DNA of 64,000 nucleotides from Brachybacterium sillae (GCF_025028335.1 NZ_JAFEUW010000001.1:930001-994000); one strand, 5' to 3'; positions 11,443 through 44,606 are shown, numbered from the stretch's first letter. Program-made: numbers and translations. Notes: generated by a model from the sequence alone, not told the origin.

Positions 11443-12057
11443 ATGCTCTGGCCCGTCCCCGATGAGCACCACGCCGTCGCACTGCGCCGACTGTGGGACG
11501 GCAACGCCCGCTTCGTCGCCGGCCACCCCGAGCGTCCCCATCAGGATCCGGCCTTCCGCACCCGCCTGGACCGGGGCCAGGCACCCTTCGCCGCGGTGCT
11601 GGGCTGCTCCGACTCCCGGGTGCCGGTGGAGATGCTGTTCGACCAGGGGTTCGGGGATCTGTTCGTGATCCGCAACGCCGGGCATGTGCCGGGGTCCTCC
11701 ACGCTCGCCTCGGTGGAGTTCGCGGTGGCGGAGCTCGGGGTGGACGTGGTGATGGTGCTGGGGCACGAGTCGTGCGGCGCGGTGGCCGCGACGGTGTCGG
11801 CGATGCGGGAGGGTACCGAGCTGCCGGCGGGCATCCCCGTGCTGGTGGACCTGGTGCGGCCGCATCTGTCCGAGGACGGCAGTGGCGATCCGGTGGTCCG
11901 GCACGTGTGCGGGACGATCGAGGATCTCCTGGAGCGTTCCCCGCTGGTGCGCACGGCCCTGGAACGGGGCGAGATCGCGGTGGCAGGAGCGGTCTACGCC
12001 CTAGACGACGGCACGGTGCGCCCCGTGTGGAGCCAGGATCGCGGCGCCCTCGAGTGA
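11443..12057 (+). CDS. Beta-class carbonic anhydrase
   Basis: It interconverts CO2 and bicarbonate in the cytosol. The zinc and catalytic residues of the beta class are all present: C55-S-D57-S-R59 and H108-E-S-C111-G. The 204-aa length is usual. ATG 11443 is supported by AGGAGG ten bases upstream. It diverges from the ThrE-like gene and converges on the DUF3017 gene. Confidence 0.93.
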   Translation: MLWPVPDEHHAVALRRLWDGNARFVAGHPERPHQDPAFRTRLDRGQAPFAAVLGCSDSRVPVEMLFDQGFGDLFVIRNAGHVPGSSTLASVEFAVAELGVDVVMVLGHESCGAVAATVSAMREGTELPAGIPVLVDLVRPHLSEDGSGDPVVRHVCGTIEDLLERSPLVRTALERGEIAVAGAVYALDDGTVRPVWSQDRGALE

Positions 12058-32050: not shown

Positions 32051-32092
32051 CGGGACTGCTGAAGGTTCGGTTGACACTTCGGGTGTGGTGGT

Positions 32093-32965
32093 TCAGGCCG
32101 CTTTCGTCGGCCAGTAGATGGTCTCAAACTCGACCGGTGTCGTCTTTCCAAGGGCGCGCTGCCGGCGTCGGCGGTGGTAGGTCCGTTCGATCCAGGTGAC
32201 GATCGCCAGCCGCAGCTCAGCGCGGCTGCTCCACCGGCGGCTGTTCAGGACGTTCTTCTGCAGGAGGGCGAAGAAGGACTCCATCGCGGCGTTGTCCGCG
32301 CTGGAGGCCACCCGTCCCATCGACCCGACCAGTCCGGCCCGGTGCAAGGCGGTGACGTAGGGCCGAGCACGGAACTGGCTGCCCCTATCGGCGTGCACCA
32401 CGCAGCCGGTGACCTCGCCCGGGCCGCGGCGGGCGACGGCCATCTCGAGGGCGTCAACCGCGAGGGCGGCCGGCATCCGGTCGTCGATCGAGTAGCCGAC
32501 GATCCGGCGCGCCCACACGTCCTTGACCGCGCACAGGTACAGCTTCCCCTCGGCGGTGGCGTGCTCGGTGATGTCGGTCAGCCACAACCGGTTCGGGCCT
32601 GTCGCGGTGAAGTCCCGCTCGACGAGGTCATCGTGCACGGGCGGGCCCGGCTTCTTCCACCGGCCACGAGTGCGGGCGTGGGCGGAGACGATCTGTGCTT
32701 GGGAGCAGATCTTCCACACCCGCCGCTCCGAGATCTCGTGCCCGGCCGCGGCGAGCTCGTCGGCGATGAACCGGTACCCGAACCCAGGGTCGTCACGGTG
32801 GACCTCGAACGCGGCGTTCATCGCGTAGGCGTCGACCAGGTCCCGCTCGCTGACCGGGTCGGCGCACCAGGCATAGAACGCCTGGGTCGAGAACTTCAGC
32901 ACCCGGCAGGTCACCGTCACGGGGATCCCGTCGACGGCAAGGTCACGGACCAGCGGGTAGGTCAT
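32093..32965 (-). CDS. IS3-family transposase OrfB (copy B1)
   Basis: The 290-aa integrase-core protein has all three DDE residues: LTDITEH (Asp), HADRGSQF (Asp) and NAAMESFFALLQKN (Glu). It starts at ATG 32965, overlapping orfA by 4 nt in the -1 frame. It is intact. Confidence 0.93.
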   Translation of the reverse strand: MTYPLVRDLAVDGIPVTVTCRVLKFSTQAFYAWCADPVSERDLVDAYAMNAAFEVHRDDPGFGYRFIADELAAAGHEISERRVWKICSQAQIVSAHARTRGRWKKPGPPVHDDLVERDFTATGPNRLWLTDITEHATAEGKLYLCAVKDVWARRIVGYSIDDRMPAALAVDALEMAVARRGPGEVTGCVVHADRGSQFRARPYVTALHRAGLVGSMGRVASSADNAAMESFFALLQKNVLNSRRWSSRAELRLAIVTWIERTYHRRRRQRALGKTTPVEFETIYWPTKAA

Positions 32966-33261
32966 TTTGGGCTCTGACCCAGCCTCAAGTTCGCCTGCGA
33001 CAGGTACGCCGCGGCGCGGCGCAGGACCTCGTTCTCCTGCTCCAGTAAGCGGATCTTCTTCCGCGCCTCGCGCAGCTGCTCGTTCTCGGCCTTGGTCACG
33101 CCGGGACGGTGGCCGTCCTCGACATCGGCCTGATGGAGCCAGTTGCGTAGGCAGGACTCGGAGATCCCGAAGTCCTTGGCGAGCTGAGCGATCGGGGCCT
33201 CGCCACGACGGGCGACCGCGACCACGTCGTCACGGAACTCCTTGGGGTGTGCTGCAGGCAT
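32962..33261 (-). CDS. IS3-family transposase OrfA (copy B1)
   Basis: The 99-aa product has an HTH (IAQLAKDFGISESCLRNWLHQAD) and a coiled coil (KKIRLLEQENEVLRRAAAYL). Its ATGA overlap with orfB is typical of IS3 elements. Confidence 0.92.
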   Translation of the reverse strand: MPAAHPKEFRDDVVAVARRGEAPIAQLAKDFGISESCLRNWLHQADVEDGHRPGVTKAENEQLREARKKIRLLEQENEVLRRAAAYLSQANLRLGQSPK

Positions 33262-33330
33262 GTCGACATCCTTCCAGCGGGGACCTCATGTCCCCACAGA
33301 TCAGGTGTCAACCGAACCTTCAGCAGTCCC

Positions 33331-33480
33331 CTCATGCGGCGATGAACGCCGCCGCCGCGGAATCGGCAGCGGGCAGGCTCCGACCTGCCGACGCTCCCCG
33401 CTTCATCAACGCCACCCTGGCCCCGGCATTCGCCGCCACAGACTGACCTCGGCCAGCCGGGGCGGCGAATCTTAGCCCTG
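33331..33480 (+). pseudogene. Possible 3' gene fragment plus hairpin beside copy B1
   Basis: An open frame ends with NATLAPAFAATD and a TGA at 33444-33446; it looks like the C-terminus of a gene cut by the IS, unrecognised. A 10-bp stem (33428-33437/33461-33470) with an inner stem follows, next to the MFS stop at 33481, and may be a terminator for either strand. Confidence 0.35.
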
Positions 33481-34836
33481 TTAGACGGGGCGGACGCAGG
33501 AGCACTGCCCAGCGATGAGAGTTCCCTCTGCCGCCGTGTCACTCCCACTAGGTGATGGTGCTCCGGCAGGCTGCAAAACAGCAGTGCGGCCGGTGTCTGC
33601 ATCGACGTGATGCTCGGGCGGGGTGGCCATGTCGGTCGCTGGGGTCGGCTCACCTCGCCAGAGCAGTGGTGCTGCGATCGCGCCGATGAGGGCAAGGGCA
33701 CCGAGGGTGATCCAGGCGGGTCCGAGGCCGGAAGCGGTGCCGATCCACCCGGCGATCGGATAGGTGATGAGCCAGGCCAGGTGCGACAGGGAGAACTGCG
33801 CCGCGAACGCGGCCGGCAGGGCCGGGGCGTCCACCGAGGCGCGAATGACCCTGCCGGTGGGGGTGATGATCAGTGCCATGCCTGCGCCGATGAGCACCCA
33901 GATCGGTGCAGTGACCGCCCACGAGACGATGCCCACCAGGGTCATGGTGATCGCGGCAAGTACGCCGACGACGAGTACGGTGGCGCCGGTGAGCATGACC
34001 GGTCGGTCGGAGATGCGGTCGAGGACCTTCGGCAGAGTCAGGGCGACGATGAGGGTGCCACCGCCTGAGGCGGCGAGCATCCAGGCGACCTCGGATTCGG
34101 AGCCGCCGAGCACATCGCGGACGTAGTTGACGGTGTTGACGACCACGATCGACCCGGCCGCAGCCACCACGAGATTCAGGGCGAGCACTCCGCGGAGCCG
34201 GGGTGTGGCGCCGAAGGTGCGGATGCCCGAGGAGATGCGGTCCCAGACGCGGGTCTGCCCGCTCGGGGACGCATTCGGGATCCGAGTGGACAGCACCAGC
34301 CCAGCGGAGACGATGAACCCGACCGCGGTCCCGACGAACAGCCAGTTGAACGTCATGAACGTCAGTGCGACGGCAGCGAGCACGGGACTGAGCAGACTCT
34401 CCATGGTCGAGGCGACCTGAGATGCCGACAGCGCGCGCGTGTACTGGGACTCCTCGGTGACGATATCGGGGATGACGGCCTGGAACGTCGGGGTGAACGC
34501 CGCAGACGCCGCCTGGAGCACCCCGACGAGGACGTAGATCTGCCACACCTCGGTCACGAACGACAGCACCAGCACGACTCCGGCACGCACGATGTCGAGC
34601 AAAGTCAGGAAGGCCCGCCTGGGCAGCCGATCCGCGTAGGCCCCGGCGATAGGGGCGATGACGACGTACATCACCATCTTGATCGTCAACGCGGTCGCCA
34701 GCACCGCACCCGCGCTGGGGCCGGCGAGCTCGTAGGCGAGCAGGCCAAGCGCGACGGTCGCAAGCCCGGTGCCGAACAGAGCGATGATCTGCGCACCGAA
34801 CAGGTGCCGGTAGTCGCGAATCGCGAAGAGTTTCAT
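33481..34836 (-). CDS. MFS transporter (EntS/MFS_3-like)
   Basis: A 451-aa, roughly 12-helix major facilitator protein starting MKLFAIRDYRHLFGAQIIALFGTG, with the loop-2/3 motif GAYADRLPRRAFL. This layout resembles the EntS/macrolide-type drug exporter group. The C-terminus ends in a Ser/Thr-rich tail with a Cys pair (QCSCVRPV). ATG 34836 has GGGAGG upstream. It lies 131 nt downstream of a CopZ gene on the same strand and is probably cotranscribed with it. Substrate unknown; a copper role rests only on context. Confidence 0.8.
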   Translation of the reverse strand: MKLFAIRDYRHLFGAQIIALFGTGLATVALGLLAYELAGPSAGAVLATALTIKMVMYVVIAPIAGAYADRLPRRAFLTLLDIVRAGVVLVLSFVTEVWQIYVLVGVLQAASAAFTPTFQAVIPDIVTEESQYTRALSASQVASTMESLLSPVLAAVALTFMTFNWLFVGTAVGFIVSAGLVLSTRIPNASPSGQTRVWDRISSGIRTFGATPRLRGVLALNLVVAAAGSIVVVNTVNYVRDVLGGSESEVAWMLAASGGGTLIVALTLPKVLDRISDRPVMLTGATVLVVGVLAAITMTLVGIVSWAVTAPIWVLIGAGMALIITPTGRVIRASVDAPALPAAFAAQFSLSHLAWLITYPIAGWIGTASGLGPAWITLGALALIGAIAAPLLWRGEPTPATDMATPPEHHVDADTGRTAVLQPAGAPSPSGSDTAAEGTLIAGQCSCVRPV

Positions 34837-34967: not shown

Positions 34968-35177
34968 TCAGGAAGCGGCGAGCTTGTAGCCCGCCTGTTC
35001 GACCGCCGTCTTCACGGCGTCATCGCTGACCGGGGTGTCCGCGCTCAGGGTGATGCCACCGGTGGCCAGATCGACATCGACGTCGGTGACGCCAGGAATC
35101 TGCTCGACCTGACTGGTGACCTTGCCGGCGCAGCCGCCACAAGTCATTCCTTCAACGGTGTAGGTGCTCGTGCTCAT
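34968..35177 (-). CDS. copZ: CopZ-type heavy-metal-associated domain chaperone
   Basis: A 69-aa single HMA domain with the Cu(I)-binding motif GMTCGGCAGKV and the ferredoxin-like fold pattern VTDVDVDLATGGITL...AGYKL. ATG 35177 has GAGGAG upstream. It is transcribed divergently from the ferredoxin operon, sharing the intergenic region that holds a CsoR-like operator. Confidence 0.92.
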   Translation of the reverse strand: MSTSTYTVEGMTCGGCAGKVTSQVEQIPGVTDVDVDLATGGITLSADTPVSDDAVKTAVEQAGYKLAAS

Positions 35178-35375: not shown

Positions 35376-35405
35376 TTGACAACAAGCTATACCCCTGTAG
35401 GGTAT
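35376..35405 (+). promoter_or_regulatory. Promoter with CsoR-type operator before the ferredoxin operon
   Basis: A TTGACA -35 (35376-35381) and TAGGGT -10 (35398-35403) are 16 nt apart. The near-palindrome ATACCCCTGTAGGGTAT (35389-35405) overlaps the spacer and the -10, so a bound repressor would block RNA polymerase. The sequence matches the general A/T-flanked poly-C/poly-G form of copper-sensing CsoR sites and resembles the site at 37355. The divergent copZ may also be affected. Confidence 0.75.
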
Positions 35406-35459
35406 CAGTCAAGTCGTACATCGATGATGCAGTTGTGTTGGTGAGTGGAAGGAGTGGCC

Positions 35460-35669
35460 GTGCGAGTGGAAGTGGATCGTCAACGGTGTGAGTCCAACGG
35501 TCTGTGCGTGCTCAGCGCTCCGGAGGTCTTCGACCTCGACGACGATGGGGTGCTCCATGTCGCTTCGTTCCCCGATGAGTCGTTGCGTGCTGATGTCGAA
35601 GACGCGGTGAGCGCCTGCCCCGTCCAGGCCCTCACTCTCCATGACGACCCCGCGGGAGGAGCACCGTGA
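35460..35669 (+). CDS. Ferredoxin, 3Fe-4S P450-type
   Basis: A 69-aa small ferredoxin. The cluster ligands visible are C10 and C16 (CESNGLC) and C53 (ACPVQAL); the position between the first pair that would hold a fourth ligand is Asn, so a [3Fe-4S] cluster is likely. GTG 35460 is chosen for AAGGAG 5 nt upstream; GTG 35445 and 35454 are alternatives. Its stop overlaps the reductase start (GTGA). It is the first gene of the CsoR-controlled redox operon and the presumed electron partner of the reductase. Confidence 0.85.
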   Translation: MRVEVDRQRCESNGLCVLSAPEVFDLDDDGVLHVASFPDESLRADVEDAVSACPVQALTLHDDPAGGAP

Positions 35670-36937
35670 GGTCGAGTACTGGGCAGCATGTGGTGGTCGC
35701 CGGTGGCGGCCTGGCCGGGATCCGCACGGTCGCCGCCCTTCGCGATGCCGGTTTTGATGGCCGAGTGACGATGCTCGACCGAGACCCCGAGTGCGATCAC
35801 GACCGGCCACCGCTGAGCAAAGGATTCCTGACCGGCACCCACTCCGAGGCCGACATACGCCTTCCTCGTGCCGCCGAACTGGATGCCGATGAGCGCGTCA
35901 CCGCCGAGGCGGCAGGACTGTCGGCGCGAGAGCGGGTCCTGCATCTGCGCGGCGGTGTCTCGCTGGGGTTCGATGGACTCGTCATCGCCACCGGGCTGCG
36001 CGCCCGGACTCTACCGGGTTCCGTGCGGGTGCCGACGATCCGCTCGATCCACGACGCCCGACGACTCCGGGCAGCACTGACGGGGCGTGCCGGGCGCCTG
36101 GTGGTCATCGGTGCCGGTTTCATCGGCACCGAGCTCGCTGCCTCAGCCCGCGAGCTCGGCTGGCAGGTCACCCTCATCGCCCGCGAATCGAACCCGCTGA
36201 CACGCGCCCTGGGGCAGACGATGGGCCGCTTCGTGGCCGACCTCCACTGGCGGCACGGTGTCGATGTCCGGGCCGGTCAGGGTGCACATGAGGTCACCGA
36301 TACCCCTGATGGATATCGGGTGAGGCTGGCGGGCGGGGAAGTCATCGAGGCCGACCTCGTGGTCGCTGCCATCGGAGCCATCCCCAACACCGAATGGCTC
36401 GACGACACTGAAATTCTCACCGGCGACGGCGTCCACACTGATGCTGGCCTTCGCGTGCTCGACCGGGCGAGGGTCCCTGTGTCGGGAATCGTCGCAGCAG
36501 GAGACGTGGCCCGCTCCCCACACCCCTTGTTCCCCGTCGAGTCCGTCCGGGTCGAGCACTGGTCGAACGCCAACGAGCACGCCAAGACCGCCGCCGCAAC
36601 GCTGCTCGCCGACCTCAGCAACACGGCTCCCGTGGTTCGGCATGCTGCGGTGCCGTCGTTCTGGTCCGATCAGTACGACCAGAAGATCCTCGCCGTGGGC
36701 CTGCCGCACCTGGCCGATTACGCCACCGTCGTCGAAGGCGACCCTTCCGAGGGACGCTTCCTCATCGCCTACACCCGCAACCAGCAGACGGTGGGCGCGG
36801 CCGGAGTCGGCACCACTCGGAGCCTAGCCCGCTACCGCCGCGCCATCGCCACGGCCACGCAACGTGAGAACCCACCCCAGGCCATCACCGATGGCGGCGG
36901 CCCGAGCGCCGTGTCAACCACGCAGGAGGAGACATGA
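35666..36937 (+). CDS. FAD-dependent ferredoxin reductase-type oxidoreductase
   Basis: The 423-aa protein has two dinucleotide-binding motifs, VVAGGGLAGIRTVAAL (FAD) and VVIGAGFIGTELAASA (NAD(P)H). The FAD-ribityl region is SGIVAAGDVA and a C-terminal reductase domain contains FWSDQYDQKILAVG. It resembles BphA4/rhodocoxin-type ferredoxin reductases. GTG 35666 overlaps the ferredoxin stop by 4 nt and its own stop overlaps the CDGSH start (ATGA). It probably passes electrons from NAD(P)H to the adjacent ferredoxin; the final acceptor is unknown. Confidence 0.9.
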   Translation: MRSSTGQHVVVAGGGLAGIRTVAALRDAGFDGRVTMLDRDPECDHDRPPLSKGFLTGTHSEADIRLPRAAELDADERVTAEAAGLSARERVLHLRGGVSLGFDGLVIATGLRARTLPGSVRVPTIRSIHDARRLRAALTGRAGRLVVIGAGFIGTELAASARELGWQVTLIARESNPLTRALGQTMGRFVADLHWRHGVDVRAGQGAHEVTDTPDGYRVRLAGGEVIEADLVVAAIGAIPNTEWLDDTEILTGDGVHTDAGLRVLDRARVPVSGIVAAGDVARSPHPLFPVESVRVEHWSNANEHAKTAAATLLADLSNTAPVVRHAAVPSFWSDQYDQKILAVGLPHLADYATVVEGDPSEGRFLIAYTRNQQTVGAAGVGTTRSLARYRRAIATATQRENPPQAITDGGGPSAVSTTQEET

Positions 36938-37188
36938 CCACCAGCACCCCAGGATCCGAGCAGACTCAGCAGCCTCAGGCGACGATCAAGACCGTCGATG
37001 ACGGCCCCCTGCAGATCAAGGGCTCCTTCCAGGTCGTCGACCACAACGGCGACGCCTACGACTTCCCTGGGCGCACCGCGTTCCTGTGTCGCTGCGGGCA
37101 CTCGGCCACGAAACCGTTCTGCGACGGCAGCCACAAACGCGAAGGCTTCACCGCCACCGGACGCGCCAGCGACCAGGAGACCACATGA
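36934..37188 (+). CDS. CDGSH iron-sulfur domain protein
   Basis: An 84-aa protein with one complete CDGSH motif: C52-R-C54-G...K-P-F-C63-D-G-S-H67. Three Cys and one His bind a redox-active, labile [2Fe-2S] cluster in this family. The N-terminus is a Thr/Gln-rich tail. It is coupled by ATGA overlaps to the reductase before it and the 56-aa gene after it. In this copper-controlled context it may be an Fe-S sensor, donor or electron acceptor; that is inference. Confidence 0.92.
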   Translation: MTTSTPGSEQTQQPQATIKTVDDGPLQIKGSFQVVDHNGDAYDFPGRTAFLCRCGHSATKPFCDGSHKREGFTATGRASDQETT

Positions 37189-37355
37189 GCCACCTGCGAA
37201 CAGCACTCGCCCACACGAGCCAATCACCAATGGTCCGGACGGGACTGCGCTGCCTGCTCGGATGCGCCACCGCGGCGCTTCACCACGCCCTGACTAAGCG
37301 CCTGGACCGCGCGAAGCCGACCCGGGCGGAATATCCCCGCACACCCTACTGTTAA
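37185..37355 (+). CDS. 56-aa protein of unknown function
   Basis: The last gene of the redox operon starts at ATG 37185, overlapping the CDGSH stop (ATGA). The product is basic, has a weakly hydrophobic middle (GLRCLLGCATAALHHAL) with a CxxxC pair and a His pair, and ends YC. Its TAA stop directly abuts the second CsoR-type operator at 37355. I recognise no family. Cys/His content would allow metal binding, but this is speculative. Confidence 0.6.
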   Translation: MSHLRTALAHTSQSPMVRTGLRCLLGCATAALHHALTKRLDRAKPTRAEYPRTPYC

Positions 37356-37374
37356 TACCCCTAGGGGGTATAGT
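37355..37374 (+). promoter_or_regulatory. Second CsoR-type operator, before copZ-copA
   Basis: ATACCCCTAGGGGGTAT (37355-37371) is a near-perfect palindrome of the CsoR type. A TATAGT -10 (37369-37374) overlaps its right arm. It lies 28 nt before copZ and matches the arms of the site at 35389. Confidence 0.8.
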
Positions 37375-37401: not shown

Positions 37402-37611
37402 ATGAACACGAACACGTACGCCGTGACCGGGATGAGCTGCAGCCATTGCGAGGTCGCGATCCGCACGGAGGTCGAGCAGATCGCTGGGGTCACCGGCATC
37501 GAGGTCAGCGCCAACGACGGGCACCTGGCGGTCACCGCCGAGGGCCCGATCGATGACGCGGCGGTCCTGGCCGCGGTCGATGAGGCCGGGTATGAGGCGG
37601 TGCGGACCTGA
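37402..37611 (+). CDS. copZ: Copper chaperone CopZ (HMA domain)
   Basis: A 69-aa HMA domain with GMSCSHCEVAI as the Cu(I)-binding loop; the added His in CSHC differs from CGGC of the other copy. It is first in the copZ-exported protein-copA transcript. Its TGA overlaps the next ATG by one base (TGATG). It would carry Cu(I) to the ATPase. Confidence 0.94.
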   Translation: MNTNTYAVTGMSCSHCEVAIRTEVEQIAGVTGIEVSANDGHLAVTAEGPIDDAAVLAAVDEAGYEAVRT

Positions 37612-38621
37612 TGCGGACCCCTCTGAAACTGAGCTTGTTCGGGCTGGGCCTGGCCGCAGTGTTCGCCACGGCGGCGGTGACCGCGAACACGGTCGTGCCC
37701 CAGTCCACCGTGGACAACTGGAGCACTCCCGCTGGTCATGCGGGCATGAACGAGAACGAGACGACAGGAGAAGGCGATATGGAAGGCATGGATCACTCAG
37801 GCAGCGGAGCGTCCGCGCTCGGCCTGGCTCAGGCGGAGAACGGGTTCGCCCTCACCGATGTGAGTGCACCGGCCCAGGTTGGTGAGACAGGTGAGCTGAG
37901 CCTGGTCGTGCGCGACGATGACGGTCAGGCGGTGACCGATTTCGATCTGGAGCATGAGAAGGAGCTGCACCTGATCGTGGTGCGCGCCGATGGTCAGCAG
38001 TTCCGTCACGTCCACCCCGAACGGGCTGCTGACGGCACGTGGTCGATTCCCTGGGAGTGGGCCGAGGCCGGCTCCTACCGAGTGTTCGCAGACTTCGTCC
38101 CCGGAGCCACCGGTGAGGGCCTGACCTTGTCGACCACAGTGAGTGTCTCCGGCGAGGTCGAGGCCCAGCCTGCGACCGGCCCGGTCACTGAGGTTGAGGT
38201 CGATGGGTACACCGTGACGGTGACCGGTGACCTGGTGGCCGGTGAGGGGTCGCCGTTGACACTGTCGGTGTCTCGTGACGGTGAGCCGGTCACAGAGTTG
38301 GAGCCGTATCTGGGGGCGTTTGGTCACCTGGTCGCGCTGCGCGATGGGGACCTGGCCTACCTGCACGTGCACCCGCACGGTGACGCGCCGGCCGCGGGCG
38401 AGACCTCGGGGCCGGAGGTGGTGTTCGAGGCGACCATCCCGAACCCGGGCCGCTACCTGCTGTATTTCGACTTCCAGGTTGATGGGCAGGTCCATAGCGC
38501 CCCGTTGGTCCTCGAGACCACCGGTGGTTCTACGACGTCCGGATCCTCAGATTCGTCGGGATCCGGTGAGGGCGAGGAGTCCGAGCCACAGGAGGAAGGT
38601 GGCGATCATGAGCACGGCTGA
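37611..38621 (+). CDS. Exported His/Met-rich, probably copper-binding protein
   Basis: A 336-aa protein with an N-terminal signal or anchor ([23 protein letters not shown]). A Met/His/Glu-rich linker follows ([10 protein letters not shown]...DMEGMDHSG), then two beta-rich domains containing QFRHVHPE and [10 protein letters not shown], and a Ser/Glu linker ending DHEHG. Such His clusters suggest extracytoplasmic copper binding. It sits between copZ and copA, with a 14-nt overlap into copA. The family is not certain; proteins of this layout recur beside actinobacterial copA genes. Confidence 0.75.
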
Positions 38622-40941
38622 GACCACAACGAGCGCGGCCGGTAGCAGTGTGGAGTTGCAGATCGGGGGCATGACGTGCGCGTCGTGCGCGAACCGGATC
38701 GAGAAGAAGCTCAACAAGCTCGACGGCATCACCGCGAGCGTGAACTACGCGACCGAGAAGGCCAGCGTCACCGCCCCCGACGGCTACGACCCGCAGCTGC
38801 TCATCGCCGAGGTCGAGAAGACCGGCTACACCGCCGCCCTCCCCGCCCCGAAGAACCAGGCAGGCGCGGGCAGCAGCGACGGTGAGGGTGAGTCGGCCGA
38901 GGACGCCGAGCTGCGTACCCTGCGGACCCGGCTGATCGTCTCGGCAGTGCTCGCGGTGCCGGTGATCGCGCTGGCGATGGTCCCGGCGTTGCAGTTCGAC
39001 TATTGGGGATTCGCTTCCCTGGTGCTGGCTGCGCCGGTGGTGGTGTGGGCGGGTTGGCCGTTCCATCGGGCGGCGTGGATGAACCTCAAGCACGGCACCG
39101 CGACCATGGACACCCTCATCTCGGTGGGCACCACTGCGGCGCTGTTGTGGTCGCTGGTGGCGCTGTTCTTCGGCACCGCCGGAGACCGCGGCATGACGCA
39201 CGCGTTCGAGTTCACCATCGCCCGCACCGACGGATTGTCCTCGATCTATCTGGAGGTCGCGGCCGGGGTGATCACCTTCATCCTGCTCGGCCGCTACTTC
39301 GAGAAGCGCTCCAAGCGTCGTGCCGGGGCCGCGCTGCGGGCCCTGTTGGAGCTTGGTGCGAAAGAGGTCGCGATCCTCCGCGACGGTGTCGAGACGCGGG
39401 TGCCGATCGAGGAACTGTCGGTCGGGGATGAGTTCGTGGTCCGTCCTGGTGAGAAGATCGCCACCGACGGGGTCATCACCTCCGGGTCCTCTGCGATTGA
39501 CGCCTCCATGCTCACCGGCGAATCCGTGCCTGTTGAGGTCGCCGTCGGCGACAACGTCACCGGAGCCACCGTGAACGCCGGCGGCCGGTTGGTCATCAAG
39601 GCCACCCGCGTCGGCTCGGACACGCAGCTGGCGCAGATGGCCAAGCTCGTCGAGGACGCCCAGTCCGGCAAGGCCGAGGTCCAGCGCCTGGCCGACAAGG
39701 TCTCCGGCGTGTTCGTACCGATCGCGATCGCGATCTCCGTCGCCACCCTGGGCGCGTGGATCGGTGCCGGGTTCCCGCTCGCGGCCGGGTTCACCGCCGC
39801 CGTGGCGGTGCTCATCATCGCCTGCCCCTGCGCCCTCGGCCTCGCCACGCCGACCGCGCTGCTGGTCGGCACCGGACGCGGCGCGCAGATGGGCGTGCTC
39901 ATCAAGGGCCCCGAAGTCCTGGAATCCACCCGCAAGGTCGACACGATTGTGCTGGACAAGACCGGCACCGTGACCACCGGCAAGATGACCCTCACCGATG
40001 TCATCACCGCCGACGGAGTCGACCGGGCCGAGTTGCTGCGACTGGCAGGCGGGTTGGAGGACGCTTCCGAGCACCCCATCGCCCAGGCCATCGCCGCCGG
40101 GGCCACTGCCGAGGTCGGCGAACTGCCCACCCCGGAATCCTTCGAGAACATCGAAGGCAAGGGCGTGCAGGGCGTCATCGACGGCCACGCCGTGCTTGCC
40201 GGACGCGAGTCCCTGCTTGCCGACTGGTCTCAGCACCTGGACGAGGAACTGCGGGCCGCGAAGCAGGCCGCCGAGGCCGAGGGCAAGACTGCGATCGCCA
40301 TCGGCTGGGACGGCCAGGCGCGTGGGGTGCTGGTGGTCTCGGACCGGATCAAGCCCACCAGCGCGCAGGCGATCGCGCAGTTCAAGGAGCTGGGGCTGAC
40401 CCCGGTGCTGTTGACCGGGGACAACCAGACCGTGGCCGAGCAGGTGGCCGCCGAAGTTGGCATCGATCAGGTGTATGCCGAGGTCCTGCCGAAGGACAAG
40501 GTCGATGTCGTCACCGAACTCCAGAGCCAGGGCAAGGTCGTGGCGATGGTCGGCGACGGCGTCAACGACGCCCCCGCCCTCGCTCAGGCCGATCTCGGCC
40601 TGGCGATGGGTACCGGCACCGACGTCGCGATCGAGGCCGCCGACATCACCCTGGTCCGCGGCGACCTGCGGGCTGCTGCTGACGCCATCCGGTTGTCGCG
40701 GAAAACTTTGGGCACGATCAAGACGAACCTGTTCTGGGCCTTCGCCTACAACTCCGCCGCGATCCCGCTGGCGGCGTTCGGGCTGCTCAACCCCATGCTC
40801 GCCGGTGCCGCGATGGCACTGTCCAGCGTGTTCGTCGTCTCCAACAGCCTCAGGCTGCGCACCTTCAAAGCCCGCGCCGACGACAGCGGAGACGCCGGCC
40901 CTGCTCAGGCCGCGCCCGAACGCGAACCCGCGATGGCCTGA
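38608..40941 (+). CDS. copA: Cu(I)-exporting P1B-type ATPase
   Basis: A 777-aa copper pump. The N-terminal HMA domain has C24-A-S-C27. The actuator TGES motif is in [11 protein letters not shown], the membrane metal site is C406-P-C408, the phosphorylated Asp is D450-K-T-G-T, and the ATP-binding [10 protein letters not shown] hinge and C-terminal membrane residues YNSAAIP follow. CPC with YN and the MxxSS region ([16 protein letters not shown]) indicate Cu(I) specificity. ATG 38608 has AGGAGG upstream and overlaps the previous gene by 14 nt. Confidence 0.97.
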
Positions 40942-40976: not shown

Positions 40977-41549
40977 ATGAACAAACGACTCGCGACACTG
41001 GCCACTATGGGCGTCATCGGCGGGGCCGTGCTGCTGGCCGGCTGTGCCACCAGCGATCCGCTCGCCGATCCCTCGCCGACACAGAGCCAAGAGGCCTCCG
41101 GTGGTCACGGGGACATGGACCACCCGACCGATGGCGGCCCCGTGCCTGAGGGCATGACGGATGCCACCGACCCGGCCTACCCGGTCGGCACCGAGGTGAT
41201 CCTCACCGCCGATCACATGGACGGCATGAACGGGGCGAGAGCGACCGTGGTGGGCGCCTACGACACCTACGCCTACTCCGTGGACTACACGCCCACCACC
41301 GGCGGCGCACCGGTCACCGACCACAAGTGGGTCGTCCACGAGGAGCTCGGCGGCGTCGAGGACGCGCGGCTGCCGGACGGCAGCACGGTGACCCTCGCGG
41401 CCGACCATATGGACGGCATGAACGGAGCTGAGGCCACGATCGCCTCGTCAACCGACGAGACCGTCTACGTCGTCGACTACGAAGCCGACGGCATGACCAT
41501 GACCAACCACAAATGGGTCACCGAGAGCGAGATGCAGCCCACCTCCTAA
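40977..41549 (+). CDS. YdhK/DUF1541-family lipoprotein
   Basis: The 190-aa product has a lipoprotein signal ending LLAGC, a His/Asp-rich linker and two DUF1541 repeats. Each repeat contains ADHMDGMNGA and ends in a (D/N)HKWV motif. The repeats are common in copper and metal islands; the function is unknown, but the HMDGM clusters suggest metal binding outside the membrane. It lies 35 nt after copA. Confidence 0.88.
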   Translation: MNKRLATLATMGVIGGAVLLAGCATSDPLADPSPTQSQEASGGHGDMDHPTDGGPVPEGMTDATDPAYPVGTEVILTADHMDGMNGARATVVGAYDTYAYSVDYTPTTGGAPVTDHKWVVHEELGGVEDARLPDGSTVTLAADHMDGMNGAEATIASSTDETVYVVDYEADGMTMTNHKWVTESEMQPTS

Positions 41550-41686: not shown

Positions 41687-41983
41687 ATGACCACGACACC
41701 GGCGTTTGGCTACATCAACGACAAGAGCCGCTACCTGGCAAGGATGAAGCGCATCGAGGGACAAACCCGCGGGATCCATCGGATGGTCGAACAAGACGCC
41801 TACTGCATCGACATCCTCACCCAGATCAGTGCGATCACCGCAGCACTCGAAGGCGTCGCGCTCGGGCTCCTCAACGACCACCTCAAACACTGCGTCGCCG
41901 AGGCGATCCAGAACGGGTCCGACGAAGTGGACCAGAAGCTCACCGAGTCCTTCGCCGCCATCAGCCGACTCGTGAAGTCCTAG
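41687..41983 (+). CDS. csoR: Copper-sensing repressor CsoR
   Basis: A 98-aa all-helical DUF156 repressor. The Cu(I) ligands of CsoR are complete: C40, then H65 and C69 with the family spacing C-x24-H-x3-C. The DNA-binding helix region RMKRIEGQTRGIHRM is present. It probably represses both operons through the sites at 35389 and 37355 and releases DNA on Cu(I) binding. It ends 12 nt before IS copy B2. Confidence 0.94.
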   Translation: MTTTPAFGYINDKSRYLARMKRIEGQTRGIHRMVEQDAYCIDILTQISAITAALEGVALGLLNDHLKHCVAEAIQNGSDEVDQKLTESFAAISRLVKS

Positions 41984-42064
41984 GCGTCGCGGGCAGGGAC
42001 TGCTGAAGGTTCGGTTGACACCTGATCTGTGGGGACATGAGGTCCCCGCTGGAAGGATGTCGAC

Positions 42065-42364
42065 ATGCCTGCAGCACACCCCAAGGAGTTCCGTGACGAC
42101 GTGGTCGCGGTCGCCCGTCGTGGCGAGGCCCCGATCGCTCAGCTCGCCAAGGACTTCGGGATCTCCGAGTCCTGCCTACGCAACTGGCTCCATCAGGCCG
42201 ATGTCGAGGACGGCCACCGTCCCGGCGTGACCAAGGCCGAGAACGAGCAGCTGCGCGAGGCGCGGAAGAAGATCCGCTTACTGGAGCAGGAGAACGAGGT
42301 CCTGCGCCGCGCCGCGGCGTACCTGTCGCAGGCGAACTTGAGGCTGGGTCAGAGCCCAAAATGA
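42065..42364 (+). CDS. IS3-family transposase OrfA (copy B2)
   Basis: The 99-aa HTH/coiled-coil protein is identical to the product at 32962-33261. It overlaps orfB by 4 nt. Confidence 0.92.
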   Translation: MPAAHPKEFRDDVVAVARRGEAPIAQLAKDFGISESCLRNWLHQADVEDGHRPGVTKAENEQLREARKKIRLLEQENEVLRRAAAYLSQANLRLGQSPK

Positions 42365-43233
42365 CCTACCCGCTGGTCCGTGACCTTGCCGTCGACGGGA
42401 TCCCCGTGACGGTGACCTGCCGGGTGCTGAAGTTCTCGACCCAGGCGTTCTATGCCTGGTGCGCCGACCCGGTCAGCGAGCGGGACCTGGTCGACGCCTA
42501 CGCGATGAACGCCGCGTTCGAGGTCCACCGTGACGACCCTGGGTTCGGGTACCGGTTCATCGCCGACGAGCTCGCCGCGGCCGGGCACGAGATCTCGGAG
42601 CGGCGGGTGTGGAAGATCTGCTCCCAAGCACAGATCGTCTCCGCCCACGCCCGCACTCGTGGCCGGTGGAAGAAGCCGGGCCCGCCCGTGCACGATGACC
42701 TCGTCGAGCGGGACTTCACCGCGACAGGCCCGAACCGGTTGTGGCTGACCGACATCACCGAGCACGCCACCGCCGAGGGGAAGCTGTACCTGTGCGCGGT
42801 CAAGGACGTGTGGGCGCGCCGGATCGTCGGCTACTCGATCGACGACCGGATGCCGGCCGCCCTCGCGGTTGACGCCCTCGAGATGGCCGTCGCCCGCCGC
42901 GGCCCGGGCGAGGTCACCGGCTGCGTGGTGCACGCCGATAGGGGCAGCCAGTTCCGTGCTCGGCCCTACGTCACCGCCTTGCACCGGGCCGGACTGGTCG
43001 GGTCGATGGGACGGGTGGCCTCCAGCGCGGACAACGCCGCGATGGAGTCCTTCTTCGCCCTCCTGCAGAAGAACGTCCTGAACAGCCGCCGGTGGAGCAG
43101 CCGCGCTGAGCTGCGGCTGGCGATCGTCACCTGGATCGAACGGACCTACCACCGCCGACGCCGGCAGCGCGCCCTTGGAAAGACGACACCGGTCGAGTTT
43201 GAGACCATCTACTGGCCGACGAAAGCGGCCTGA
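42361..43233 (+). CDS. IS3-family transposase OrfB (copy B2)
   Basis: The 290-aa DDE integrase-core protein is identical to the product at 32093-32965, with catalytic residues intact. Confidence 0.93.
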   Translation: MTYPLVRDLAVDGIPVTVTCRVLKFSTQAFYAWCADPVSERDLVDAYAMNAAFEVHRDDPGFGYRFIADELAAAGHEISERRVWKICSQAQIVSAHARTRGRWKKPGPPVHDDLVERDFTATGPNRLWLTDITEHATAEGKLYLCAVKDVWARRIVGYSIDDRMPAALAVDALEMAVARRGPGEVTGCVVHADRGSQFRARPYVTALHRAGLVGSMGRVASSADNAAMESFFALLQKNVLNSRRWSSRAELRLAIVTWIERTYHRRRRQRALGKTTPVEFETIYWPTKAA

Positions 43234-43274
43234 ACCACCACACCCGAAGTGTCAACCGAACCTTCAGCAGTCCC

Positions 43275-43362: not shown

Positions 43363-44298
43363 CTATGTGGGTGCCAGCTCTCGGTTGAGGGCGGCGTAGT
43401 AGGCAGTCTCGTACTCGGCCGGGGTGGTCATAGCCAGGGACGAGTGGAGCCTTCGATTGTTGTACCACTCGACCCATCCGGCGGTGGCGTACTCGACGTC
43501 GGCGATGGTCTTGTACGGGCCGTTGTGGAAGATCGTGGTGGTGATGCACTCGGTCTTGTACAAACCGATGACGCATTCCATGAGCGCGTTGTCATACGCA
43601 TCGGCGACGGTCCCGATGGACGCGGCGATGCCCTCGGCGGCCAGGTGCTCGGCGAAGCGAAGGCTCGTGTACTGCGACCCGGCATCGCTGTGCGCGATCA
43701 GCTCGCCGGGCTGCACAGGGTGCCCGTGCCGGTCACGGTCCCACAACGCGATCCGCAGCGGGGTCAGGACCAGCGGGGTCGTCTTGGCCGTCGCGGCATG
43801 CCAGGCGAGGATTCTCTGCGAGTAGCAGTCCAGCACGAACGCGACGTATACGAAGCCCGCCCACGTGCGCACATAGGTGAAGTCCGCGACCCACTTCGTG
43901 TTCGGCGCGGCCGCGGTGAAGTCTCGATTGAGCAGGTCACCGGCACGGCAGCCGTCCTTGGCCGGGACGGTGGTGCGCACTGGCCTGCCTCGACGCACAC
44001 CGTTCATCCCCGCAACCCGCATGAGCCGGTCCACACGACCGGCGCCGACCTGGTGACCTTGTCGACGCAGCCACGCGGTCATCTTCCGACGCCCGTACAG
44101 CCCTTCCGGGGTGCCGACAAGGTCGTGCAGGACGTTGAGCAGGACCGCGTCGGACGTGTCACGAGCCGACGCGCTGCGGCGGCGCCACGCCCGGTAGGTG
44201 CGTGCGGCGATCTGACAGCCCTCCTGACGGAGCACCCTGCAGATCGACTCGACCGCATGCCCCTTGGCGCGCATCTGATCGATGAATCCCATGATCAT
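43363..44298 (-). CDS. IS3-family transposase OrfB (element C)
   Basis: A 311-aa integrase-core protein with KWVADFTYV (Asp), AHSDAGSQYTS (Asp) and NALMECVIGLYKTE (Glu). It is different in sequence from elements A, B and D. It overlaps orfA by 4 nt and is intact. Confidence 0.93.
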   Translation of the reverse strand: MIMGFIDQMRAKGHAVESICRVLRQEGCQIAARTYRAWRRRSASARDTSDAVLLNVLHDLVGTPEGLYGRRKMTAWLRRQGHQVGAGRVDRLMRVAGMNGVRRGRPVRTTVPAKDGCRAGDLLNRDFTAAAPNTKWVADFTYVRTWAGFVYVAFVLDCYSQRILAWHAATAKTTPLVLTPLRIALWDRDRHGHPVQPGELIAHSDAGSQYTSLRFAEHLAAEGIAASIGTVADAYDNALMECVIGLYKTECITTTIFHNGPYKTIADVEYATAGWVEWYNNRRLHSSLAMTTPAEYETAYYAALNRELAPT

Positions 44299-44606
44299 CG
44301 GTTGCGGGGGTCGAGCTCCCCCGCGAAGAAAATCGAGGCCTTGCGCAGGATCTCGTTGTCCTCCCGCAATCGTTTGACCTCGCCGCGCAGGCGCTTGAGC
44401 TCGGCCAGGTCATCGCTGGTCGGCCCGTCCTTGAGGCCGGCGTCGACGCGGTGCTGACAGACCCAGCGGCGCAAGGTCTCGCGCCCCACGTCGACCTTCG
44501 GCGACACCAAAGCCACGGCCTTCGTGACTGACCCGGCTTCCTCGACACGGTCCAGGACCATCCGCACCGCGCGGTCCTTCACCTCGGGATCGAACTTCTT
44601 CGGCAT
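44295..44606 (-). CDS. IS3-family transposase OrfA (element C)
   Basis: A 103-aa protein starting MPKKFDPEVKDRAVRMVLDRV, with an HTH and the coiled coil LRGEVKRLREDNEILRKASIFFAG. ATG 44606 is preferred over an upstream ATG because the family N-terminus begins there. Confidence 0.9.
   Translation of the reverse strand: MPKKFDPEVKDRAVRMVLDRVEEAGSVTKAVALVSPKVDVGRETLRRWVCQHRVDAGLKDGPTSDDLAELKRLRGEVKRLREDNEILRKASIFFAGELDPRNR

Follow-up and report, generated by a model that had tools for sequence, protein, structure and literature searches.

The window, a 64-kb stretch of an actinobacterial genome of 2.67 Mb (G000), contains a copper cassette bracketed by two copies of an IS3-type element of 1290 bp (32052–33341, minus strand, and 41985–43274, plus strand), which form a 100% identical inverted repeat. 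The plus strand of the cassette encodes, in this order, a single-cluster ferredoxin (fdx, 35460–35669), an FAD-dependent ferredoxin reductase (fdr, 35666–36937), a type 4 CDGSH protein (cdgsh, 36934–37188), a small protein (p56, 37185–37355), a CopZ-like copper chaperone with an HMA domain (37402–37611; Pfam and NCBIfam), a secreted MG2-like protein containing His and Met (37611–38621), the Cu(I) P1B-ATPase CopA (38608–40941; Pfam and NCBIfam), a YdhK-like lipoprotein with two DUF1541 domains (40977–41549; Pfam) and a CsoR/RicR-type copper repressor (41687–41983). The minus strand carries a divergent CopZ-like chaperone (34968–35177; Pfam and NCBIfam), which has an equivalent position in a locus of Brevibacterium sp. 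XM4083 (L032), and, 3′ of it, an MFS transporter (33481–34836) with 72% identity to its L032 counterpart and 62% to that of a further copper locus (L212). The MG2-like protein has no confident family (weak Pfam MG2 match, 0.011); copper loci repeatedly encode it between copZ and copA, with homologues of 40–62% identity in L032, L064, L145, L152 and L205–L214 and also in Rhodococcus-type loci. At the outer borders of the two inverted IS copies we saw no short target duplication that matched, and we therefore make no claim that the cassette as a whole is mobile. Beside the left copy, at 33331–33445, the sequence HAAMNAAAAESAAGRL... resembles by eye the C-terminus of the TetR protein next to the MFS gene of L032; tblastn with that TetR gave no match for a tetR remnant at this position. 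An ALIL pseudoknot (RF01497, 53.4 bits; 44203–44337, minus strand) lies inside a second IS3-family element and is consistent with programmed frameshifting of the transposase of that element.

The first four plus-strand genes are joined by GTGA (35666–35669) and ATGA (36934–36937 and 37185–37188) overlaps, and by this layout they clearly read as a single transcription unit. The start of fdx is most likely GTG 35460, which follows AGGAG by six bases. Upstream lies a predicted sigma-70-type promoter, TTGACA-16-TAGGGT (35377–35404, plus strand), and the putative CsoR-type operator ATACCCCTGTAGGGTAT (35389–35405) overlaps its spacer and its −10 element (TAGGGT), so that repressor binding there would block RNA polymerase. 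The same palindrome type, ATACCCCTAGGGGGTAT (37355–37371), occurs with zero mismatches upstream of copZ, its TAC-N9-GTA ending 31 nt before the copZ ATG. The repressor gene that closes the cassette encodes a complete Cys-His-Cys copper site (C40/H65/C69) and matches Pfam Trns_repr_metal at 1.9e-29; its top NCBIfam match is RicR at 5.5e-38, yet below the cut-off of that model. CsoR is a repressor that is released by Cu(I), and we infer that a putative switch of this type controls fdx-fdr-cdgsh-p56. Overlaps, promoter, both palindromes and the complete repressor had been described in the initial annotation, and the coordinates and domains found here agree with it.

The specificity of the two operators was assessed by pattern scans. 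Allowing up to two mismatches, the window gave 10 matches against 0.4 expected, a number attained in none of 100 shuffles, and zero-mismatch matches within the 64 kb were confined to 35389–35405 and 37355–37371. A strict scan (TAC-N9-GTA plus C/G tracts) returned two sites in the window, both in the cassette, against an average of 0.275 in mononucleotide shuffles of the window, and no site in 44 control loci (751,663 bp). CsoR of S. lividans requires TAC-N9-GTA flanking G/C tracts, with the consensus ATATACCCCTNAGGGGTATAT (PMC3902906), and both cassette operators, TACCCCTGTAGGGTA and TACCCCTAGGGGGTA, satisfy this type-2 rule (TAC-N9-GTA plus G/C tracts; PMC3902906). The promoter layout is repeated in relatives, where a TTGNNN −35 element is combined with TAGGGT within the box at spacers of 17–18 nt (fdx of L032, CDGSH of L150 and L151).

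The ferredoxin was identified by Pfam (Fer4_15, 2.6e-13; Fer4_19, 5.4e-8; also Fer4_13). It has three cysteines (CxxxxxC...CP) and probably holds a [3Fe-4S] cluster; its closest solved chain is 8amp, a 'possible ferredoxin', and in the PDB comparison a P450 51 chain (6mcw/7snm) was seen to carry a similar domain. Such three-Cys ferredoxins are common partners of P450s. The reductase (Pfam Pyr_redox_2, 2e-49; Reductase_C, 1.1e-12) is of the oxygenase/P450 type, with 6tuk, BphA4 and putidaredoxin reductase as PDB relatives and a resemblance to AndAa and HcaD. These likenesses would suit ordinary redox partners of a P450 or a Rieske oxygenase, placed next to copper genes by chance. No match to the P450 family (PF00067) was found in the window genome, while the same search detected a P450 in 7 of 14 control genomes; the usual client of a ferredoxin/reductase pair is therefore removed, and a P450 redox-partner operon was ruled out. 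The operon has no joined oxygenase gene either, and a chance association explains neither the operator nor why the genes recur in copper loci. The oxygenase-partner explanation is thus largely refuted, and we regard it as very improbable. A MerA-like metal reductase was ruled out as well, since the redox-active CxxxxC is absent from the window reductase, which has a single Cys; the related reductases of L095 and L212 have none.

The CDGSH protein (Pfam zf-CDGSH, 1.1e-17; best solved relative 3tbm) contains the type 4 motif hydrophobic-CxCxx(S/T)xxxP-hydrophobic-CDG(S/T/A)H as LCRCGHSATKPFCDGSH (rule from PMC3174974), with C52, C54, C63 and H67 as ligands. It also has an N-terminal P-motif, GPLQI (rule: GP followed by hydrophobic-x-hydrophobic), and a K following the His ligand, and it is predicted to be a redox-active [2Fe-2S] homodimer. 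In a tree of 56 sequences the seven closest CDGSH proteins formed one clade (support 95/87), consisting of the window protein and those of L032, L064 (Prescottella equi plasmid p1-WH99), L145 (genome G757), L150 (G944), L151 (G981) and L152 (G1035). No locus was picked for copper: the reductase as query led to L032, the CDGSH protein as query against plasmids to L064, and a CDGSH profile run against genomes to the other four. The clade has a signature of its own (V21, Q27, K29, H37, Y42 and F50), with GPLQI in all seven members and His37 in six; the [2Fe-2S] ligands are invariant (7/7), and the residue following the His ligand is K or R in two members (window and L032) and A or V in five. Among the seven sequences compared, no conserved Cys or Met has been gained. 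With the ligands kept and no new Cys or Met, a cluster or electron carrier fits better than a copper sponge.

The genomic context of the clade was compared with that of other CDGSH genes. In all seven loci copZ lies close by the CDGSH gene, in five copA does too, and a CsoR-type box lies upstream of CDGSH or of the operon-leading fdx in every case. The csoR gene itself was within the examined stretch in three loci and was not seen in the other four, where regulation in trans would therefore be needed. By comparison, copA, copZ, csoR and a box were all absent from each of the 33 further actinobacterial CDGSH loci that were compared with wide flanks. With the window left out the contrast is 6/6 versus 0/33 (p ∼ 3e-7), the seven clade members sharing ancestry and so not being independent events. 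The clade is rare, occurring in 2 of 396 genomes of the order, 3 of 351 Mycobacteriaceae-type genomes and 1 of 57 in the genus of L032. Judged by gene neighbourhood, it is a conserved CDGSH clade linked to copper loci; a distribution mainly away from copper genes, which would have spoken against the initial annotation, was found neither for CDGSH nor for p56. An MFS transporter of another, DHA2-like kind is encoded behind CsoR-type boxes, beside CDGSH or p56, in L145, L152, L064, L150 and L213.

The small protein p56 had no match in Pfam or NCBIfam, and a first search with the single sequence against 297 genomes of the order matched the window only. When 301 genomes were searched with a profile, 13 of them had matches at E ≤ 2.1e-4, in 12 cases at a copper locus; in the remaining one the match sits on a 3.3-kb contig whose context is not readable. 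Homologues were located in 13 further copper loci, usually in the order copA-p56-csoR (Mycobacteriaceae loci), and also 3′ of CDGSH in G944 and G981 and 3′ of the MFS gene in Prescottella; weaker matches in two more copper loci, of G999 and G926, are plausible members. On Rhodococcus plasmids the gene is unannotated or listed as 'hypothetical protein'. R22, C23, C27 and A28 are invariant in ten members, P15 is nearly so, and most members end in a C-terminal Cys, as p56 does. The AlphaFold model shows only helix and is of low confidence (mean pLDDT 68.5, pTM 0.32). An orphan or spurious reading frame was ruled out by the homologues behind CDGSH (G944/G981) and between copA and csoR (Mycobacteriaceae). 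As far as conservation and context go, p56 is a real, copper-linked family (PxxRxxxRCxxxCA) that is unnamed by Pfam and NCBIfam. From the Cys pattern, its members may bind Cu(I).

The complete four-gene order, for which a neighbourhood search had been proposed, was found in the window only. L032 has fdx, reductase and CDGSH behind a CsoR-type box (54–65% identity), together with copZ, an MG2-like gene and copA, and neither p56 nor csoR nearby; other loci hold subsets. In L064 a frameshifted fdx and CDGSH follow a CsoR-type box, again with copZ, an MG2-like gene and copA; unlike the window, this locus has no reductase and possesses an MFS gene followed by p52. Its ferredoxin (11623–11826), which is unannotated and located between csoR and CDGSH, appears to be broken by two compensating frameshifts. 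The ferredoxin/reductase pair is complete in only two of the seven clade loci (window and L032), and the four loci besides L064 have neither gene. With one or both genes missing or broken in five of seven loci, the electron chain is therefore not obligatory. A fixed four-gene unit was rejected, because the order is rare and the ferredoxin and reductase are optional while CDGSH and p56 recur. On the loci compared, the four-gene unit is a minority form; what recurs is p56 and the CDGSH protein of the copper clade. The initial proposal of a copper-stress module thus stands for the membership in a CsoR-type copper system (7/7 clade loci, operators), and falls for a reductase-ferredoxin-CDGSH wire as a general design; Cu(II), damaged clusters and a quinone, the acceptors it names, are candidates.

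Relatives of the reductase were also found on their own. Lone reductases with 36% and 40% identity lie directly behind CsoR-type boxes in two copper loci, L095 (G014, the genus of the window) and L212 (G999), both with copZ and copA nearby; in L212 the box is 12 nt before the reductase ATG. By eye, the neighbours of the reductase in that locus are a protein rich in Cys, which resembles copper-storage proteins (L212 3597–4022), and one of DUF305-like type (L212 2538–3224). Eleven further loci of the reductase family had no box and no copper gene, save for one weak match (25%) to a P-type ATPase. The superfamily as a whole occurs mostly away from copper genes, and some standalone reductases may have a job unrelated to the copper role.

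Taken together, the assignment of fdx-fdr-cdgsh-p56 to the copper response is well supported by layout, operators and neighbourhood, and the biochemical role would be either the upkeep of Fe-S clusters or the reduction of Cu(II) or another acceptor. According to the second possibility, electrons from NAD(P)H would pass via reductase, ferredoxin and CDGSH to Cu(II), or would keep copper as Cu(I), for CopZ and CopA. Precedents exist in CcoG and the [2Fe-2S] CopZ of Archaeoglobus fulgidus, Fe-S proteins that reduce Cu(II) and whose physiological electron donors are listed as unknown (PMC7558416). Lone reductases under CsoR boxes (L095, L212) fit an electron supply without a cluster donor, and slightly favour copper reduction over Fe-S upkeep. 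The CDGSH clade has acquired no further conserved Cys or Met that could bind copper (there is one clade-typical His37, 6/7), which slightly favours the opposite; moreover, the cytosol is reducing already, CsoR is described as Cu(I)-responsive, and four to five loci have CDGSH without a reductase. Copper reduction is the main rival reading, and we consider it rather unlikely.

The conserved cysteines of p56 allow for still another role, in which CDGSH and p56 would buffer Cu(I) in the cytosol or serve as co-chaperones, either copper-bound or sacrificial, with the ferredoxin pair as baggage of a mobile cassette. The invariant RCxxxCA, the mostly present C-terminal Cys and the position between copA and csoR in Mycobacteriaceae would agree with this, as would the frameshifted fdx of Prescottella, which indicates that fdx can be lost. 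The invariant [2Fe-2S] ligands and the lack of extra copper ligands in the CDGSH clade speak against buffering; the reductase, in turn, is found again in two unrelated loci, each time behind a CsoR box, and is therefore not simple baggage. This role is improbable.

The reading that we prefer is that of a CsoR-controlled accessory arm of the actinobacterial copper-resistance cassette which limits copper damage to Fe-S metabolism, to which we assign a probability of roughly 0.5. It is established that copper attacks Fe-S dehydratases, as Macomber and Imlay reportedly found in 2009 (cited in PMC4801387). Apo-CsoR would sit on the operator and shut the promoter, which Cu(I) would release. The reductase would then hand electrons from NAD(P)H to the ferredoxin and, directly or via the ferredoxin, to the [2Fe-2S] CDGSH protein, the redox state of which would set whether its cluster is kept or donated. 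Fe-S enzymes damaged by Cu(I) could thus be re-supplied, CopZ and CopA meanwhile clearing the metal, and p56 would probably bind Cu(I) through CxxxC and the C-terminal Cys, or aid CopA or CsoR. In loci without fdx and reductase, CDGSH would depend on housekeeping reductants for its reduction. Human NEET proteins donate their cluster to apo-acceptors in the oxidised form and hold it in the reduced form (PMC8463382); for type 4 CDGSH proteins no description of cluster donation was found in the literature covered, the transfer data being those of human NEETs. In type 7 CISDs a DUF1271 ferredoxin-like domain is fused to CDGSH (PMC3174974), which hints that ferredoxin and CDGSH work together. The DUF1271 domain we take to be Fer4_19. 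A bolder reading, which we put forward tentatively, is a dedicated copper-induced Fe-S defence of Actinobacteria. In it a CDGSH protein of the copper clade, in some cases supplied by a reductase and ferredoxin of its own, would mend Fe-S enzymes or supply them anew (or reduce copper) during copper stress, complemented by p56 as a new family of small three-Cys proteins that bind Cu(I).

The cassette shares features with several known systems. With the actinobacterial CsoR/RicR copper regulons, namely those of S. lividans CsoR (csoR, copZA1, copZA2) and M. tuberculosis RicR (mymT, mmcO, lpqS, socAB, Rv2963, ricR), it has in common the operator type and rule, a CsoR/RicR-like repressor, copZ-copA targets and small accessory proteins; in the literature covered, neither a CDGSH protein nor a ferredoxin or its reductase is among the described members of these regulons. 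With type 4 CDGSH proteins (Ralstonia RsCISD; PDB 3tbm) the window protein has the full motif, the single domain and the P-motif in common, but its clade is set apart by its own signature and the copper-locus context. Type 7 CISDs pair a ferredoxin-like domain with CDGSH, as is the case here; the window proteins do not belong to this type, since they are encoded by separate genes and are not fused. A. fulgidus CopZ and Rhodobacter CcoG are, like the proposed unit, Fe-S electron carriers in copper handling, but the former is a fusion, the latter a membrane protein with two tetranuclear clusters, and their folds are unrelated to those of the window proteins. The open-licence literature contained nothing relevant on CDGSH proteins together with copper, CsoR or copper resistance, and no account of the CDGSH protein or of p56 as a component of a copper system; the initial annotation had not recognised the four-gene unit as a described copper system.

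Actinobacteria commonly have type 4 CDGSH proteins, and according to a survey the function of CISD proteins is yet to be understood (PMC3174974). Relatives of two of the genes recur in copper-resistance clusters of distant actinobacteria, which points to an arm of bacterial copper defence not yet described. One CDGSH clade is now tied to a named regulator and stress, which makes its function directly testable, and the p56 family offers a second, very small test object from the same loci. The system is a candidate answer to how Fe-S enzymes, a main target of copper toxicity, are protected or restored under copper. It is also a candidate source of the electrons for copper reduction, the physiological donors of which are listed as unknown (PMC7558416). 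The dedicated Fe-S defence, if true, would give a bacterial type 4 CDGSH protein its first physiological role.
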